This document shows, in pieces, positions 30,646 through 37,532 of a DNA stretch of 64,000 nucleotides (its first letter is position 1; each line of letters opens with the position of its first letter). The position numbers and the translations under genes were made by a program. The notes beneath the pieces are model-generated. The model ran no database searches. It was not told the DNA's origin and was given only the letters and a program-made list of their open reading frames with translations. The DNA comes from an uncultured Roseobacter sp. (lineage in GTDB: Bacteria; Pseudomonadota; Alphaproteobacteria; Rhodobacterales; Rhodobacteraceae): contig CANMWT010000006.1 of assembly GCA_947501635.1 (NCBI GenBank), forward strand, positions 124,001-188,000, in the 5' to 3' direction.

Positions 30646-31419
30646 TCATAACTGTGCGCGTGGACGACGGCTGAATGTCAGATCCCGCAGCGTGATCTGG
30701 TTCATCTCCGGATTTTCGAAAATGATGTCGATCCATGCTTTTTCGACGCGCTTCTCGTTCATGTTGGAATAGGCGAGGTCGAATTCAGTGTGCACATCGT
30801 TTTGTGCCGAAGAGAGTTCTCGCACGATTTGTTCGGTGTTGGGCCCGTAGCGGATGTTGAGGCGCACGAAGATTTCCAGCGGTTTTTCCATGTTCACAAT
30901 GGAATCGATCCGCAGGATATGTGTACGCTTCAGACCGTTGACCGCGCTTTCGGGCAGATCAAGCACCAGCGACAGAAACGAGCCGTCGAATTTGAAGACG
31001 TCGAGACGCACGCCAAAGGGCGCGAGGTCCGCTTCGCGCTGGTTGCGCAGTTGCCGCAGTGTCAGTTCCGATCGTTCACAGTCGTGAAACAGGGTGATCT
31101 CATCGCCCAGCTTTGATTTGCTTTCTACGGAAGAAATACCGCGTACAGGCAGCGGGCCGCGCCAGATTTCCGGTCGCCACGACCAGTCTGCGTTATGCGG
31201 TTTGGGAAAGCTATTGGAGCCGATGACCGGCAGGGCCAAACGCTCGTCCGCGACGTGGATCAGTTCATCGAGGTGCGCGCGCAACTCCTTTGCGCGGGTG
31301 CTTTGCTTGCGCAACTGGCTCATTTTCGACGTGCCTGCCTCGCGCGCGGAAAAGGCCCAGCGGCTCAAAAGCCGACGGTACATGGCCGTGTCCAGAAAGG
31401 TATCGGCGATTTTGCCCAT
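30646..31419 (-). CDS. Uncharacterised conserved-looking protein (possibly DUF6478)
   Basis: 257 residues from the ATG at 31419 (MGKIADTFLDTAMYRRLLSRWAFSAREA). A longer frame to 31563 was rejected because it would run through the ilvD terminator hairpin at 31521-31551. No signal peptide. An N-terminal helical half (about 1-60) is followed by a strand-rich half with W-RPEIWRGPLP, EITLFHDCERSELTLRQLRNQ and a C-terminal AWIDIIFENPEMNQITLRDL. The look is that of a Rhodobacteraceae-restricted cytoplasmic family that I associate, without certainty, with DUF6478. No function can be stated. Confidence 0.68.
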   Translation of the reverse strand: MGKIADTFLDTAMYRRLLSRWAFSAREAGTSKMSQLRKQSTRAKELRAHLDELIHVADERLALPVIGSNSFPKPHNADWSWRPEIWRGPLPVRGISSVESKSKLGDEITLFHDCERSELTLRQLRNQREADLAPFGVRLDVFKFDGSFLSLVLDLPESAVNGLKRTHILRIDSIVNMEKPLEIFVRLNIRYGPNTEQIVRELSSAQNDVHTEFDLAYSNMNEKRVEKAWIDIIFENPEMNQITLRDLTFSRRPRAQL

Positions 31420-31520
31420 GCGAAAAGCTCTGCCCTTCCAACCAGATTGCCCTTTCTCTAGCCGGAAAGGGTTGCGTTCAAATAAACTGCGAAAATCGTC
31501 GCGACGCAAGAAATTGAACG

Positions 31521-31551
31521 AAAAAGCCCCGCACAGAGACATATGCGGGGC
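31521..31551 (-). terminator. Rho-independent terminator of ilvD
   Basis: 8-bp stem GCCCCGCA/TGCGGGGC (31526-31533 with 31544-31551). On the minus strand it is followed by TTTTT (31521-31525). It lies 9 bp beyond the ilvD stop codon. Confidence 0.9.
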
Positions 31552-31559
31552 ATTTACTG

Positions 31560-33293
31560 TCAAAGATCCATGTATTCATGGCCTTCGTGTTTGCCACCGG
31601 GGTGCGTAACCGCCCCAAGGTAGGTCGGTCCGACAAGCTGCGCGTATTTCCACAGTGCGCCTGCGCCGTATATCGTCGGGCGTGCACCCTTCCACGCCGC
31701 TTTGCGTTTGGCCAGTTCATCGTCGCTCAGATCGACGGAGATTGTGCCTTCGATGGCGTTGATCGTGATCATGTCGCCGTTTTCCAGCAAGGCAATTGGT
31801 CCGCCATGGGCGGCTTCGGGGCCGACGTGCCCAACACAAAACCCGCGTGTCGCGCCGGAAAAGCGACCGTCGGTGATAAGCGCGACCTTCTTGCCCATAC
31901 CCTGACCTGACAGGGCGGCTGTGGTTGCCAGCATCTCGCGCATGCCGGGGCCGCCTGCTGGCCCTTCGTTGCGGATGACAAAGACATCACCCTCGTTGTA
32001 CGCACGGTTCTGAACCGCTTCGAAAGCGTCCTGTTCACATTCGAAAACGTTTGCTGGGCCGGTAAAGCTCAGATGTTCCTCTGCCATCCCAGCGATTTTA
32101 ACGATCGCACCTTCGGGTGCCAGATTGCCTTTAAGCCCGACGACGCCACCGGTCTTGGACAGTGGGGTTTCAACGGGGTAAACCACGCGGCCGTCTGCCT
32201 CGAGGGTGACTTTGTCCAGTTCTTCGCCGATGGAATAGCCCGTCGCTGTCATGCAGTCTTCGTGGATCAGACCTGCTTTACGCAGTTCTTTCATGACAAC
32301 TGGCACGCCGCCTGCTTCGTACATGTCTTTGGCCACATATTGCCCGCCCGGCTTGAGATCGACAAAGTAGGGCGTATCGCGGAAGATTTCGCAGACGTCA
32401 TCGAGGAAGAAATCAATGCCTGCTTCATGGGCCATGGCTGGCAGGTGCAGGCCTGCATTGGTTGAACCTCCGGTACAAGCCACGATACGGGCTGCGTTTT
32501 CCAGCGATTTGCGGGTAACGATGTCGCGCGCACGGATGTTTTTTTCGATCAGGTTCATGACGGCCGCGCCGGAGGCTTCGGCATAGGCATCGCGCGACTC
32601 GTAAGGCGCAGGTGCCCCGGCGGAGTTGGGCAACGCGAGGCCGATCGCCTCAGAGACGCAGGCCATTGTGTTGGCCGTGAACTGTCCGCCACAGGCGCCT
32701 GCTGACGGGCAGGCCACGGCTTCAAGTTTTTCCAACTCGCAGGTGGTCATATTGCCGGCCTGATGCTGGCCAACGGCTTCGAAAACGTCCTGAACAGTAA
32801 CGTCCTTGCCATTCAGACGGCCCGGCAGGATCGACCCGCCGTAAAGAAAGACAGAAGGCACGTTCAGGCGGATCATCGCCATCATCATGCCGGGCAGGGA
32901 TTTGTCGCATCCCGCCAGACCGACAATCGCATCATAGCAGTGGCCTCGCATCGTCAACTCGACCGTGTCTGCGATCGCCTCGCGGGAAGCCAGCGAAGAC
33001 CGCATGCCCTCGTGACCCATGGCGATACCGTCGGTCACGGTAATCGTGGTAAACTCGCGCGGCGTTCCGTGTTCGCGTTTCACACCCATCTTGACCGCCT
33101 GGGCCTGACGGTTCAGCGCGATGTTGCAGGGTGCCGCTTCGTTCCAGCAGGTGGCCACGCCGACCAGTGGCTGATGTATTTCTTCGTCGGTCATCCCCAT
33201 CGCGTAATAGTAGGACCGGTGCGGTGCACGGGCGGGGCCTTCTGTCACATGACGGCTGGGCAGTTTTGATTTGTCGAAACGCGGTGTGGACAT
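31560..33293 (-). CDS. ilvD: Dihydroxy-acid dehydratase
   Basis: 577 residues from the ATG at 33293, with GAGAGG just upstream; the longer frame (to 33359) lacks conserved sequence. The family is clear: [34 protein letters not shown], then [16 protein letters not shown], and [18 protein letters not shown]. These hold the three Cys positions around the Fe-S cluster ([18 protein letters not shown]). It dehydrates 2,3-dihydroxy-isovalerate and the related methylvalerate in valine and isoleucine synthesis. Full length. It stands alone with its own terminator; no ilv or leu neighbours are present. Confidence 0.97.
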
Positions 33294-33501
33294 GAGCCTC
33301 TCCCCTGAAAATATCTCTGTCAGGGAATAGCCAACCCCCCTGCGGGCTGCAAGGCTCAACCGTTGTGCGCTAGGGGTGCAAAAAGCCCACGCGGCTTGTA
33401 TTGCCCCAGACCCGGGCCTAAGTTGATCAGATGGCAGGCCCCGCTCCTGCCAAGCCGGCCTGAACGGCTTGTACTTCGGGCCTCAGACGAAAGCCGGTTT
33501 T

Positions 33502-36500
33502 ATGGAACCCTCAATCTTTTCCTTTATCTGGAAGTATTCCAAACGCGAACAGATTTTCCTGCTCGGCTTTACGCTGTTCACGTTCCCCTTTCTCTATGCA
33601 ACGCTGGAATTGCCGAAACGGATCATCAACGATGCGATTGGCGCTGACGATCCGACGGTTGACATGTGGGGCGGGATCACTGTCAGCCAGGTCGAGTTTC
33701 TGATGATCCTCTGTGGTCTCTACCTGTCGGCTGTGCTGGCGCATGGCTTGCTGAAGATGCGGCTGAACACGATGAAGGGCATTCTGGCAGAACGCCTTTT
33801 GCGTCGGTTCCGTTTTCAGCTTGTCGGGCGCATGATGCGTTTTCCCCGTGCCTATTTCCGCTCCACCAGTCAGGGGGAGCTGGTCTCGATGGTCACTTCA
33901 GAAGCGGAGCCGATGGGCGGACTGATGGGCGACGCTGTCGCGCAGCCTGTGTTTCAGGCAGGCCAGATGCTTATCATTGTCGTGTTTCTTTTTGCCCAGA
34001 GCATTTGGTTCGGGCTGGCGGGTATCGCACTTATTCCGTTGCAGGCGTGGCTTATTCCGATGTTGCAACGCCAGATCAACCAGCTGAACAAAAAGCGTAT
34101 CGTTCAGGTGCGTGCTTTTGCATCCGAGATCGGCGAAACCGCTGCGGGCATTACCGATCTGCGCACCAATGGTGGCTGGCGCTATCGTCTGGCTGCCTTC
34201 ACAGACCGTCTTGGCAAGCTTTTTGATATCCGTTTTCAGATTTATCAGAAAAAGTTCTTTATGAAGTTTCTGAACAACTTCATCACCCAACTGACGCCGT
34301 TTTTCTTTTATTCGGTCGGCGGACTGCTGGCGATCCGCGGCGACATTACTGTGGGTGCACTGGTTGCGGCGCTTGCGGCTTACAAAGACCTGAGTTCGCC
34401 GTGGAAAGAGCTTTTGACCTACTACAATCAGGTGCAGGATATGTCCCTGCGCTGGGAAATTGTGACAGAACGCTTTGCGCCGAAGGGGATGATCGAAGAG
34501 AAACTCTTTGATGGTGAACCCGAGAGTATTCCACATCTGGACGGTGTTATTTCGATGCGGAACGTGACGGTCCGCAATGCGGACGGCAATGCGGTGCTTG
34601 AGAATATCTCGCTGGAGATCCCGGCAGGTGCCCGCGTTGCCGTGCAGTCGCAAAGTCAGCTTGAACGCACGGCATTTGCCGAATTGCTGACGCGCGAGGT
34701 GCTGCCGGCACGTGGCGATATCACCATCGCCGGCCAACCTTTGAATGACCTGCATCAGGCGGTGATTGCCGCGCGCATCGGGTATGCGCATTCACGACCC
34801 TATCTTTTTGATGGCACTTTGGGTGACAACCTGCTGATGCCGCTTCGGTCCAGCCCTAAAACAGTGCTGTGGGATCCGGGCAAGCAGGACCGCTGGGCGA
34901 TGGAGGCAAAGCGAACGGGTAACAGTCTGGACAGCACGCGTGCGGATTGGCTTGATCCTGAACTGGCGGGCCTGAACGATGCGGATGATATCCGCGGGTG
35001 GTGGTTCCATCTGGTGGAAGCCATGGGCACCGATGATGTGATGTTCCGACGTATGCTTGCGTCGCGCATGGACGCACAAAAGCATCCCCATCTTGCCGAC
35101 CGGCTGGTGGGTCTGCGCGACGAGGTGCACGAACGTCTTGTAGAGAGAGGCCTTGCTGCCTTGGTGAACCGCTTTGACCCTGAGGAGTTCAACCCGTCTA
35201 TCCCGTTGGGCGGCAACCTCATGTTTGCCTCACCCAAACGCGACATCTCGCAACAGGGCTTGGCGGCGGAACAGGATTTTCTGGGTCTGATTACAGAACT
35301 CGGGCTTGCGGAACAGGGTATCGCGATTTCCCAAACCCTGATCGAAACGCTGCACCAGACATTTGGCAGAGACGGCACCAAACACCCGCTTTTCACCGCC
35401 TTGGGAATAGAGGAAGAGCTCTACGAAAAACTGGTCGACATTGCGATGCGGCGTCAGGAAAAGGGCGATCAGGCGATCAGTCAGGAAGAATTCGCGTTGC
35501 TTCTGACAGTTCCTTTTGCTTTTACGGCAGAACAGATCGGGCCGGGTTTTCCCGAAAGTTTCAAACAGGAAATCCTTGAAATCCGGCGCGCAAAAAGTAG
35601 TGAGATGCGGCAGCGGATGAAGGACCTATTCGTGCCTGTCGCGCCGGAGAATTACCTGCCGCGGCTGACGCTGATGGAGAATGTGCTTTACGGCCGGATT
35701 TCCGGCATGGCCGGTGTGCAGGGCGAATTGATCGAAGATATCGTCGCGGAGATCCTTGAGGAAAATGGGCTAAAAAGGCTTGTCGCAGAGACAGTTCTGG
35801 ATGTGCGCACAGGGTTGGGTGGCTCCAATATGGCGAGCATTTTTCAAGAGCGCGCCGCCTTTTCCAGAGCCGGCATCAAACGCCCGGATGTGCTGATTTT
35901 GGATAACGTGCTTGCTAGCGACGACAATGAAGCGCGCAAAAGAACGGGCCGGCGATTGCTTGAGCTTTTGCCGAACACCACGATGATCTTTCTGGAAGAC
36001 AAATTTGAAAACCCTGAGGCTTTTGATTTCTTTATCGAGATCAAAAACGGGCGCATCGACGGTGAGGAAACCATCGAAGAACCTAATGAGGGCGATTCAG
36101 GATCAGACGATTTGCGGCGCAAGATTCGCGTTATCTCGCGTACTGAGCTTTTTGCGAACATCGATGCGCGTAGCCAGCGGCTTCTGGCTTTTGCCGCCCA
36201 GTGGTATTCGGCACCCAAAGGCAAACAGATTTTCGCCATCGGAGAAAAGCCGGATGCCGCCTATCTGTGCCTGACCGGACGCGGCATGATGAGCTATGTG
36301 GATGACGGCGGTGTTCGGCGAGATGTTACAGCGGTCGAGCCGGGCAGGCTTATTGGTGATCTGGCCATCATTCTCAACGAGCCCCGGCAGCTTGACCTTT
36401 TTGCCGAAGAAGACAGCCAGTTCCTGCGGATCGGTGCCGAACAGTTCCGAGCAGTGATTGGTGAGGATCCGCATGTATTGATGATCCTGTTGCAAACCGT

Positions 36501-36624
36501 TGCCAGCCATCTGACCGGTGCGGCAGAGCTCTTGCGGTCGGCAAGGGTGGATATTCGCAACGAGGCGGTGCGGCGCAATAGCGGCGAAATGCCAGGCGAA
36601 AACGTGGAAACTATTGGCGAGTGA
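33502..36624 (+). CDS. ABC-exporter-like protein with degenerate ATPase and C-terminal cyclic-nucleotide-binding domain
   Basis: 1040 residues from the ATG at 33502. Residues about 15-330 are an exporter-type membrane domain (RRFRFQLVGRMMRFPRAYFRSTSQGELVSMVTSEAE; FFYSVGGLLAIRGDITVGALVAALAAYKDL). An NBD scaffold follows, but Walker A reads VAVQSQSQLERTAF near 378, the signature area reads GLGGSNMASIFQER near 775, Walker B ends DVLILDNVLASDD (catalytic Glu is Asn), and the H-loop reads IFLEDKF. About 320 extra residues separate the Q-loop-like part from the signature. Residues about 890-1010 are a cNMP-binding domain (GKQIFAIGEKPDAAYLCLTGRGMMSY; GRLIGDLAII). ATP hydrolysis is unlikely. The gene's TGA overlaps the CPBP protease ATG by 1 bp. 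Confidence 0.88.
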   Translation: MEPSIFSFIWKYSKREQIFLLGFTLFTFPFLYATLELPKRIINDAIGADDPTVDMWGGITVSQVEFLMILCGLYLSAVLAHGLLKMRLNTMKGILAERLLRRFRFQLVGRMMRFPRAYFRSTSQGELVSMVTSEAEPMGGLMGDAVAQPVFQAGQMLIIVVFLFAQSIWFGLAGIALIPLQAWLIPMLQRQINQLNKKRIVQVRAFASEIGETAAGITDLRTNGGWRYRLAAFTDRLGKLFDIRFQIYQKKFFMKFLNNFITQLTPFFFYSVGGLLAIRGDITVGALVAALAAYKDLSSPWKELLTYYNQVQDMSLRWEIVTERFAPKGMIEEKLFDGEPESIPHLDGVISMRNVTVRNADGNAVLENISLEIPAGARVAVQSQSQLERTAFAELLTREVLPARGDITIAGQPLNDLHQAVIAARIGYAHSRPYLFDGTLGDNLLMPLRSSPKTVLWDPGKQDRWAMEAKRTGNSLDSTRADWLDPELAGLNDADDIRGWWFHLVEAMGTDDVMFRRMLASRMDAQKHPHLADRLVGLRDEVHERLVERGLAALVNRFDPEEFNPSIPLGGNLMFASPKRDISQQGLAAEQDFLGLITELGLAEQGIAISQTLIETLHQTFGRDGTKHPLFTALGIEEELYEKLVDIAMRRQEKGDQAISQEEFALLLTVPFAFTAEQIGPGFPESFKQEILEIRRAKSSEMRQRMKDLFVPVAPENYLPRLTLMENVLYGRISGMAGVQGELIEDIVAEILEENGLKRLVAETVLDVRTGLGGSNMASIFQERAAFSRAGIKRPDVLILDNVLASDDNEARKRTGRRLLELLPNTTMIFLEDKFENPEAFDFFIEIKNGRIDGEETIEEPNEGDSGSDDLRRKIRVISRTELFANIDARSQRLLAFAAQWYSAPKGKQIFAIGEKPDAAYLCLTGRGMMSYVDDGGVRRDVTAVEPGRLIGDLAIILNEPRQLDLFAEEDSQFLRIGAEQFRAVIGEDPHVLMILLQTVASHLTGAAELLRSARVDIRNEAVRRNSGEMPGENVETIGE

Positions 36625-37532
36625 TGCGCGGTTTTATGAACCTGCAAGCCTACGGGGCGCATGAAATACTGGTGGCGCCAGCGCGCGGATCCGAGCAGAT
36701 CTGGCGCCTGATCATGGGCGTCATCCTTATTGCCGGTGTTGTTCTGCTGATAAGCCAGTTCGTCAATCAGGCGCTGGTGACGCTGCTGGGCAATGCGGTT
36801 TACGCCCGCCTGATCGGCGCGGACGGTCCCTCTTCGCCCGTTTCGGTAATCTACCTGCTCAGCTCATTCGGGTTTCTGACGTTGGGCGTCGTGGTGGCGC
36901 TTCGCGTGGCACATCATCGCGGCTTTGGCGCGTTGCTTGGCGACTGGGGCCTGTTCAAACAACAGTTCTTTGCTGTTGTCATTGTGTTGTTTGCGATCAA
37001 CCTCGCCATCATTCTTTTGCCGCCATGGGATGCGGGCATGCCGCTGGAACCGAACCTGGCTTTTCGGGTGTGGCTTGCGGCGTTGCCGTTCGCGCTTGTG
37101 GCAATCCTGATACAGGTCAGCGCCGAAGAGATCGTCTTTCGGGGATACCTGCAGCAACAGATCGCCGCGCGATTTTCTTCGCCGTTAATCTGGCTGCTGG
37201 TGCCGTCTGCTTTGTTCGGGTTGGGGCACTACATGCCGCAGGCCGCTGGGGAAAATGCAGTCATGCTTGCCGCATGGGCCGGTGTTTTCGGGCTGGCGAT
37301 GGCGGATGTGACAGCGCGGGCAGGCACCCTTGGCCCCGCTATAGCGATCCACCTGTCGCATAATGCCGTTGCCATTCTTTTCGTCTCTATTCAGGACGAA
37401 TTATCCGGTCTTGCGCTTTATTCGATAGCAATCGACCTGTCGGATACAGAAGCTGTCAGCGGGCTCATTCCGGTCGAGTTCATGATGATACTGGTTAGCT
37501 GGCTCGGAGCGCGTCTTGCGATCCGCCGTTGA
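36624..37532 (+). CDS. CPBP-family intramembrane glutamic-type metalloprotease (CAAX-like)
   Basis: 302 residues. The ATG at 36624 overlaps the stop of the preceding gene (TGATG); a GTG at 36621 is the alternative. About seven to eight hydrophobic helices. Catalytic motifs are in order: SAEEIVFRGYLQQQ (EExxxR), then SALFGLGHY (FxxxH) and HLSHNAVAI. These match the Rce1/CPBP fold, which cleaves or binds membrane proteins. Tight coupling to the pseudo-ABC/cNMP gene suggests they act together. It is followed 58 bp later by accD, with no terminator seen. Confidence 0.9.
   Translation: MRGFMNLQAYGAHEILVAPARGSEQIWRLIMGVILIAGVVLLISQFVNQALVTLLGNAVYARLIGADGPSSPVSVIYLLSSFGFLTLGVVVALRVAHHRGFGALLGDWGLFKQQFFAVVIVLFAINLAIILLPPWDAGMPLEPNLAFRVWLAALPFALVAILIQVSAEEIVFRGYLQQQIAARFSSPLIWLLVPSALFGLGHYMPQAAGENAVMLAAWAGVFGLAMADVTARAGTLGPAIAIHLSHNAVAILFVSIQDELSGLALYSIAIDLSDTEAVSGLIPVEFMMILVSWLGARLAIRR

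Follow-up and report, generated by a model that had tools for sequence, protein, structure and literature searches.

An exporter-fold ABC-like protein family with a remodelled nucleotide-binding domain and its association with a conserved glycan gene cluster

Domain layout of the ABC-like protein and its locus

The window analyzed here is a stretch of 64,000 nucleotides from an uncultured Roseobacter sp. (contig CANMWT010000006.1, positions 124,001 to 188,000), and its subject is the gene for a large protein resembling an ATP-binding cassette (ABC) exporter, which is followed by a gene for a CPBP-family protease. The coordinates of both genes and of the features in the first are given in Table 1. 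The ABC-like gene was read from an ATG, with a TTG at 33469 as an upstream extension of the same frame, and the gene order at the locus is ilvD, DUF6478, ABC, CPBP, accD, folC. The neighbours and relatives of the gene point to a Rhodobacterales-type alphaproteobacterium as the host. The protein is comprised of a membrane domain, a nucleotide-binding domain (NBD) interrupted by an insert, and a cyclic-nucleotide-binding (CNB) domain. The Pfam family ABC_membrane (PF00664) matches residues 41–291 with 68.1 bits (cut-off 28), in agreement with a preliminary description of the DNA in which an exporter-type membrane domain was said to be kept. ABC_tran matched the N-terminal half of the NBD alone (residues 366–463, 26.5 bits, cut-off 25), and the second half was recovered as a weak alignment over approximately residues 772–852 in a phmmer comparison with the PDB. 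The cNMP_binding family matches residues 904–988 with 41.6 bits, placing this domain at the C-terminal end of the protein, also as first described.

A predicted structure of the monomer has a mean predicted local distance difference test (pLDDT) score of 80.8 and a predicted template modelling (pTM) score of 0.67, with weak stretches at residues 162–179 and 292–294. Comparison of the model with P-glycoprotein (P-gp) and PCAT1 resulted in Foldseek E values of 1e-15 to 1e-17. The template modelling (TM) score is 0.61 with PCAT1 (by PCAT1 length) and approximately 0.25 with P-gp, and the root mean square deviation from PCAT1 is 13.4 Å over 854 columns; the high deviation and the low P-gp score indicate that the likeness to solved exporters holds at the domain level only. 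At that level the protein has both the ABC_membrane domain and the exporter-like predicted structure of a type IV ABC exporter, and its best NCBIfam likeness is to MsbA, far under the equivalog cut-off. Conservation is highest in the membrane domain (mean majority residue 0.82 in 102 sequences), with a value of 0.89 for the coupling-loop stretch at residues 112–145. The median ratio of nonsynonymous to synonymous substitution rates (dN/dS), taken from 12 close pairs of which some share sequences, is 0.05–0.09 in the transmembrane domain (TMD), both NBD halves, the insert, and the CNB domain, indicating purifying selection.

Table 1. Features of the ABC-like gene and the adjoining protease gene, in positions of the window
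Feature	Residues	Positions	Strand	Basis or remark
Whole ABC-like gene		33502..36624	+	1040 aa; exporter membrane domain, eroded NBD with insert, C-terminal CNB domain
Membrane domain	1-340	33502..34521	+	Pfam match and conservation
NBD, N-terminal half	346-446	34537..34839	+	Pfam, phmmer against PDB, alignment
Walker A position	382-391	34645..34674	+	Lys 389 to Arg, both Gly gone
Module 1 look-alike	436-448	34807..34845	+	Usual post-Q-loop place; Ser 431 just before
Insert	447-729	34840..35688	+	Two extra copies of the post-Q-loop/helical-subdomain element
Module 2 look-alike	566-578	35197..35235	+	Asn 572 in 117/117
Module 3 look-alike	721-733	35662..35700	+	Asn 727 and Gly 731 in 117/117
NBD, C-terminal half	730-860	35689..36081	+	phmmer against PDB, alignment
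Former signature region	771-787	35812..35862	+	No LSGGQ
Walker B/D-loop region	796-808	35887..35925	+	Asp 801 and Asp 808 retained; catalytic Glu to Asn 802
Former H-loop	827-838	35980..36015	+	His to Asp 833
CNB domain	904-988	36211..36465	+	Arg 962 retained; ribose-binding Glu to Asp 953
CPBP-family protease gene		36621..37532	+	Start GTG 36621 or ATG 36624; overlaps ABC stop

Lost ATPase residues and a triplicated element in the NBD

The motif columns were calibrated on nine other ABC_membrane proteins from the same genome, and seven residues were scored: the Walker A Lys and Ser/Thr, the Q-loop Gln, the signature Ser and second Gly, the catalytic Glu, and the H-loop His. All nine controls have the Walker A Lys and Ser/Thr, the Q-loop Gln, the signature Ser and Gly, the Walker B Asp, and the catalytic Glu, and eight have the H-loop His, giving 6–7 of the seven scored residues in each. 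In the window protein Lys-389 is replaced by Arg, Gln-431 by Ser, Ser-778 by Ala, Gly-780 by Ile, Glu-802 by Asn, and His-833 by Asp, with Thr-390, the Walker B Asp-801, and the D-loop Asp-808 retained, and its sequence contains no canonical Walker A, no LSGGQ, and neither the catalytic Glu nor the H-loop His of an ABC ATPase. These losses are shared by homologues. Among 102 aligned close relatives the canonical residue is absent throughout at positions 389, 431, 780, 802, and 833, Ser-778 is canonical in 6, and position 389 is Arg in 87; no scored residue is left in 46 of the sequences, one in 51, and two in 5. A complete ATPase site is found in 0/117 aligned members of the whole family, with scores of 0–5 of 7 versus 6–7 in the controls. 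The preliminary claim that every ATPase motif is lost thus stands for the Walker A Lys, the signature, the catalytic Glu, and the H-loop, but not for Thr-390 and the Walker B and D-loop Asp residues. Because Asp-801, Asp-808, and Thr-390 partly persist and Lys-389 is mostly Arg, the site appears to have been remodelled, not scrambled. The failure of every motif tested, the fixation of the loss across the clade, the purifying selection on the NBD, and the existence of relatives reduced to the membrane domain together bear out the early suggestion that the protein is a non-ATPase, which on sequence grounds is very probable.

The insert measures approximately 283 residues, shorter than the roughly 320 estimated at first, and its length is near-constant among relatives. 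The three look-alike segments noticed in the preliminary description are well conserved, the module Asn being present at position 443 in 115, at 572 in 117, and at 727 in 117 of the 117 family members. Profile-profile comparison gave probabilities of 98.8% for modules 2 and 3, 87.8% for modules 1 and 3, and 81.0% for modules 1 and 2; at the level of these profiles, modules 2 and 3 are clear repeats and module 1 is more weakly related. When 325 non-overlapping pairs of 66-residue segments were scanned, 15 exceeded 50%, all inside residues 397–792. The profile comparison and the segment scan together identify the three look-alikes as the visible tips of a triplication. The insert modelled on its own has a pLDDT of 86.9, and no match of this model to the PDB was found at E ≤ 0.001; on this basis the reading of the insert as a known domain was rejected.

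The wider family, the CNB module, and the glycan cluster

The genome sets used here are samples. Searched with a profile of the insert, 98 of 289 alphaproteobacterial genomes have the family, as do 31 of 398 genomes of a phylum-wide sample, all 31 of them Alphaproteobacteria, and the ABC protein is present in 31 of 149 Rhodobacteraceae genomes; in a scan of genome records gammaproteobacterial entries were also matched, such as Moritella and Granulosicoccus. The 86 members outside the clade with a fused CNB domain have approximately 850–1100 residues, most without a fused CNB domain, and retain 0, 1, 2, 3, 4, or 5 scored residues in 20, 20, 9, 18, 15, and 4 sequences, respectively. The best of these outer members retain the Lys, Glu, and His, with the second signature Gly changed to Ala or Ser. 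In a tree of the TMD the window paralogue, the second paralogue, and a glycan/gamma group each fall on one side of a branch (SH-aLRT, the Shimodaira–Hasegawa-like approximate likelihood ratio test, 93, 99, and 99), and all three lie inside the fused-CNB set of 31 rows (SH-aLRT 100). The TMD trees were used for grouping of these three (P1, P2, and GM) and the fused set and not for the root, which is unreliable because the branches of the canonical outgroup are very long.

Relatives that lack the NBD were recognized from a 398-residue protein beside a full-length member at locus L102, and a search with this protein returned many places with open frames of 320–430 residues. Twenty-three such loci were taken, 22 with one open reading frame of 313–471 residues and one (L289) in which the frame is broken in two. 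The 22 proteins score 137–334 bits with the family TMD profile and ≤38 bits with a profile of exporters from the window's own genome, and no NBD-like sequence was found within 1.2 kb in 22/22, or, for 13 of them, anywhere in the whole stretch around the gene. Four of them (L102:9607-10803, L259:7162-8577, L260:7056-8294, and L301:6540-7781), which have an extra N-terminal stretch, nest within the family in the TMD tree, and a second group is made up of the remaining 18. Where tested, the four have genes for a cupredoxin, a CusF-like protein, or a multicopper oxidase nearby; the eighteen further relatives (L282–L300), of 313–400 residues, have varied contexts. The NBD-less relatives are the strongest hint that a membrane domain of this kind can work without ATP.

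The CNB pocket of the window lineage retains one of the two ligand-binding residues sought. The phosphate-binding Arg-962 is present in 59/59 aligned sequences, as expected for a cyclic AMP (cAMP)-type pocket, whereas the ribose-binding Glu is Asp-953 in 59/59. Both canonical residues are found in 7/7 stand-alone CNB proteins aligned, and the Glu is retained in the 4/4 rows of the second paralogue that were shown (L023–L026). The Asp in place of Glu suggests that the ligand in the window lineage is likely changed or more weakly bound. At 55 loci outside the fused clade, a separate CNB gene on the same strand follows the ABC gene in 46, in 5 the same open frame also contains a CNB match (a stop-to-stop test, by which the fusion of L223 and L235 is uncertain), and 4 have no CNB match, one of which (L175) has a fused CNB domain in an alignment of the same gene (L120). 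The window's own genome gave 12 matches to Guanylate_cyc and 17 to CNB, with one CNB match under the cut-off, and cyclic nucleotides are therefore plausible.

Gene contexts were built from annotated seeds. The conserved glycan cluster associated with the family encodes GT28-like and GT4 glycosyltransferases (two of each), a histidine phosphatase, and a polysaccharide-deacetylase-like protein, and in many cases a methyltransferase as well. At the 55 outer loci, the glycosyltransferase genes GTa and GTb are present in 39 and 41, the histidine phosphatase in 36, the deacetylase in 28, the methyltransferase in 31, and a cyclase in 3; 14 have neither GTa nor GTb. A further neighbour, "c2", was rejected as a conserved gene, since the simple gene caller had produced it as an antisense artefact. 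In annotated replicons of rhizobia, Azospirillum, and Sulfitobacter, the ABC gene adjoins glycosyltransferases and a polysaccharide-deacetylase-family gene, and several of these replicons also carry an Opp-type importer and adenylate/guanylate cyclases. GTa was found in 31/31 ABC-positive versus 10/118 ABC-negative Rhodobacteraceae genomes, five of the ten matches being weak (E approximately 1e-48 to 1e-66), and in 91/98 versus 2/191 genomes of the class sample. Phylogeny was handled in these tests by a subset of approximately one genome per family alone (G149–G284, by family codes), in which GTa is present in 40/42 ABC-positive and 2/94 ABC-negative genomes (40 with both, 2 with ABC only, 2 with GTa only, 92 with neither). 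In the window's own genome the cluster lies on another contig in the order GTa-GTb-GTd-phosphatase-GTc-deacetylase-methyltransferase (L253:7219-13736, G000:C15), with importer genes upstream and no match to the ABC family at the cluster. The association between the ABC family and the cluster thus holds although the genes are unlinked in this genome. By GTa the conserved cluster occurs in 93/289 genomes of the class, one of them with a weak match (examples are L253, L187, L188, and L198). Genes for MscS-like channels adjoin the cluster or the ABC gene in some loci (L253:4566-7115, L108:3660-5933, and L198). In Rhizobium etli CIAT 652 (L194:8189-10678) GTa and GTb lie beside cyaAa and carry the deposited names redA and redB, whose origin was not found in the open-access literature searched.

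The protease gene has a narrower distribution. Its product matches the CPBP family (PF02517, 55.7 bits) and has the EExxxR, FxxxH, and HxxxN motifs, with Glu-169, Glu-170, Arg-174, His-203, and His-244 in 76/76 and Asn-248 in 75/76 aligned sequences. With the stop of the ABC gene ending at 36624, either start of the protease gene overlaps it, as the preliminary description had it; among relatives the spacing from the ABC stop to the first aligned CPBP residue ranges from a 16-nucleotide overlap to 66 nucleotides after. In a set of 80 loci, a CPBP gene comes next in 62 of the 64 linked to accD and in 0 of the 16 others, and at L060 and L065 the ABC gene runs straight to accD. That the protease gene always follows is therefore true of the window paralogue at all but these two loci and not beyond it, and the idea that the protein works with the protease lacks support as a general rule, the wider family being paired with the glycan cluster. 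Protease coupling was rejected as the core function since CPBP is limited to one paralogue; from its distribution, CPBP is a lineage-specific companion and not the core of the system.

Interpretation, alternative explanations, and known systems

Because the parts needed for ATP use are lost and the family is tied to a glycan pathway, the protein is probably a ligand-controlled gate or flippase, not a pump. In the mechanism we propose, a family of exporter-fold (type IV ABC) proteins that no longer hydrolyzes ATP would serve the conserved glycan pathway. Acting as a homodimer, the membrane domain would pass the product of the pathway, probably a lipid-linked glycan, across the membrane or between its leaflets without ATP. 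The mode might be that of a gate, of a facilitated flippase, or of an ion-coupled carrier. The NBD would have become a regulatory clamp around the triplicated helical element, and the CNB module, which is encoded separately in most of the family and fused in the window lineage, would set the open or closed state once it binds a cyclic nucleotide or a similar small molecule. In the window lineage the gene may have been duplicated and have left the glycan cluster, with this copy gaining its CPBP neighbour. The partnership with the glycan pathway is quite likely, control through the CNB module is reasonably likely, and transport is slightly favored over a scaffold role; for the complete proposal of an ATP-independent gate or flippase run by the CNB module through the remodelled NBD, the chances are about even.

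Several observations weigh against this proposal. Among the 102 close relatives the Walker B Asp is still present in 69, the D-loop Asp in 79, and Ser/Thr-390 in 55, and among the 86 outer members the Walker A Lys and the catalytic Glu are each present in 39; the persistence of the Asp and Thr residues together with the conserved coupling loops may therefore reflect some movement driven by a nucleotide or by the NBD. The Asp in the CNB pocket puts cAMP in question as the ligand, and cyclases lie near the ABC gene at few of the outer loci (3/55), although several plasmid clusters of rhizobia do have annotated cyclases. Seven of the 98 ABC-positive genomes have no GTa match, and the ABC gene stands beside the glycan cluster in 0/64 loci of the window lineage.

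Loss of the ATPase residues would also be seen if a dead exporter served as a membrane scaffold or sensor without transport, anchoring the glycosyltransferases (here also the protease) and relaying the state of the CNB module. Such a role would fit the linkage with cytosolic enzymes and with a CNB protein, and also an adjoining CPBP protein with active-site residues intact in 75–76 of 76 sequences. Against it, conservation peaks in the membrane domain, relatives with little beyond that domain have been maintained, some of them in a copper-resistance setting where the glycan cluster is absent, and no glycosyltransferase gene is linked in the window lineage, making a pure scaffold rather doubtful. 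Continued use of ATP is less probable still, whether the site is cryptic and non-canonical, outer members have kept some activity, or a canonical half-exporter from another locus completes a heterodimer. Heterodimers with a degenerate site are a known theme, outer members reach 5 of 7 residues, and the Walker B and D-loop Asp residues persist; however, known degenerate half-exporters normally keep Walker A, and here positions 389, 431, 802, and 833 have lost their canonical residues together in 102/102 close relatives. A nearby heterodimer partner was rejected, as no other exporter-like ABC gene was found in the 55 outer loci (at E<1e-25) or in the 80 loci L031–L110.

The window paralogue might instead have left the glycan pathway altogether and regulate, or be processed by, the CPBP protease. 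The protease gene does follow closely at nearly all accD-linked loci, but two loci retain the ABC gene without it and co-occurrence with the glycan genes is complete among ABC-positive genomes of the Rhodobacteraceae sample, which pools both paralogues; such a protease partnership is improbable. That the gene is a decaying pseudogene, to which the loss of the catalytic motifs might point, is barely credible given its conservation: the open frame is full-length across many genera, and dN/dS is low in both halves of the NBD.

Compared with known systems, the gate or flippase proposed here shares features with several and differs from each. Exporters with one degenerate site, such as TM287/288, CFTR, and SUR, use the non-hydrolyzing site for regulation; they retain Walker A, and their complex still has one or more working sites. 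The window protein resembles them in its probably non-hydrolyzing sites and differs in that the Walker A Lys is kept in 0/102 of its close relatives. Flippases of lipids and lipid-oligosaccharides of the MsbA/PglK type have the same exporter fold, and outer members lie beside glycosyltransferases, but those flippases are ATPases with intact motifs, whereas no member of this family has a complete set and the NBD element is triplicated. In the msbA2 operon of Sinorhizobium meliloti, glycosyltransferases likewise stand beside an MsbA-like exporter, and together they are proposed to synthesize and export an unknown polysaccharide (PMC3687685, PMC5596199); that operon, compared by its description only, has no CNB or cyclase gene in the cited accounts. 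The SbmA/BacA-type SLiPTs are proposed to have descended from full-length ABC transporters through loss of the NBDs and are described as lacking NBDs and coupling helices and as using a glutamate ladder (PMC13316013). As there, an exporter-fold membrane domain would here work without ATP, the nearest parallel being the 22 membrane-domain-only relatives. Unlike the SLiPTs of that account, the window protein still has an NBD, in remodelled form, and its coupling-loop stretches are conserved; it also falls outside the SbmA_BacA sequence family, with no match to this Pfam family for it or for the 6 membrane-domain-only relatives tested. HetC of Nostoc is reported as a peptidase-containing ABC exporter with an N-terminal CNB domain needed for function, a C39 peptidase, and a required catalytic Glu; its CNB domain bound ppGpp (guanosine tetraphosphate), not cAMP, in vitro (PMC10986499), which is a warning for ligand guesses. 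The window protein is like HetC, so described, in joining an ABC exporter to a CNB domain and unlike it in the C-terminal position of that domain, and neither a C39 peptidase nor an intact ATPase was found in it. As far as the cited descriptions extend, the closest analogue is SbmA/BacA in function and HetC in architecture, and by the tests run the window protein is a member of neither.

A bolder version, in which the family comprises nucleotide-gated glycan flippases that have moved past ATP, with the NBD as a ligand-driven clamp, the CNB module in place of ATP, and side branches that dropped the NBD, is put forward tentatively as less likely than not. If true, it would represent a second independent route, besides SbmA/BacA, from a primary pump to an ATP-free transporter with its intermediates still living. 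The family itself, with members that have 0–5 of 7 catalytic residues and relatives with no NBD, offers living stages in the change of an ATP pump into another kind of protein. The co-occurrence also ties an unexplained ABC protein, very probably not an ATPase, to a widespread pathway of glycan assembly for which no published description was found in the open-access literature searched. As the exporter fold is coupled to a CNB module, second-messenger control of glycan export can be tested in laboratory strains.

The window's own genome has two family members, on contigs C6 and C10; the second, CPBP-free paralogue (L167:7278-10307, G000:C10) has a hydantoinase-like gene on one side and an FtsJ-type methyltransferase gene on the other. 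Upstream of the ABC gene in the window, the DUF6478 gene occupies positions 30646–31563, and its relatives are likewise upstream at several loci of the same paralogue.

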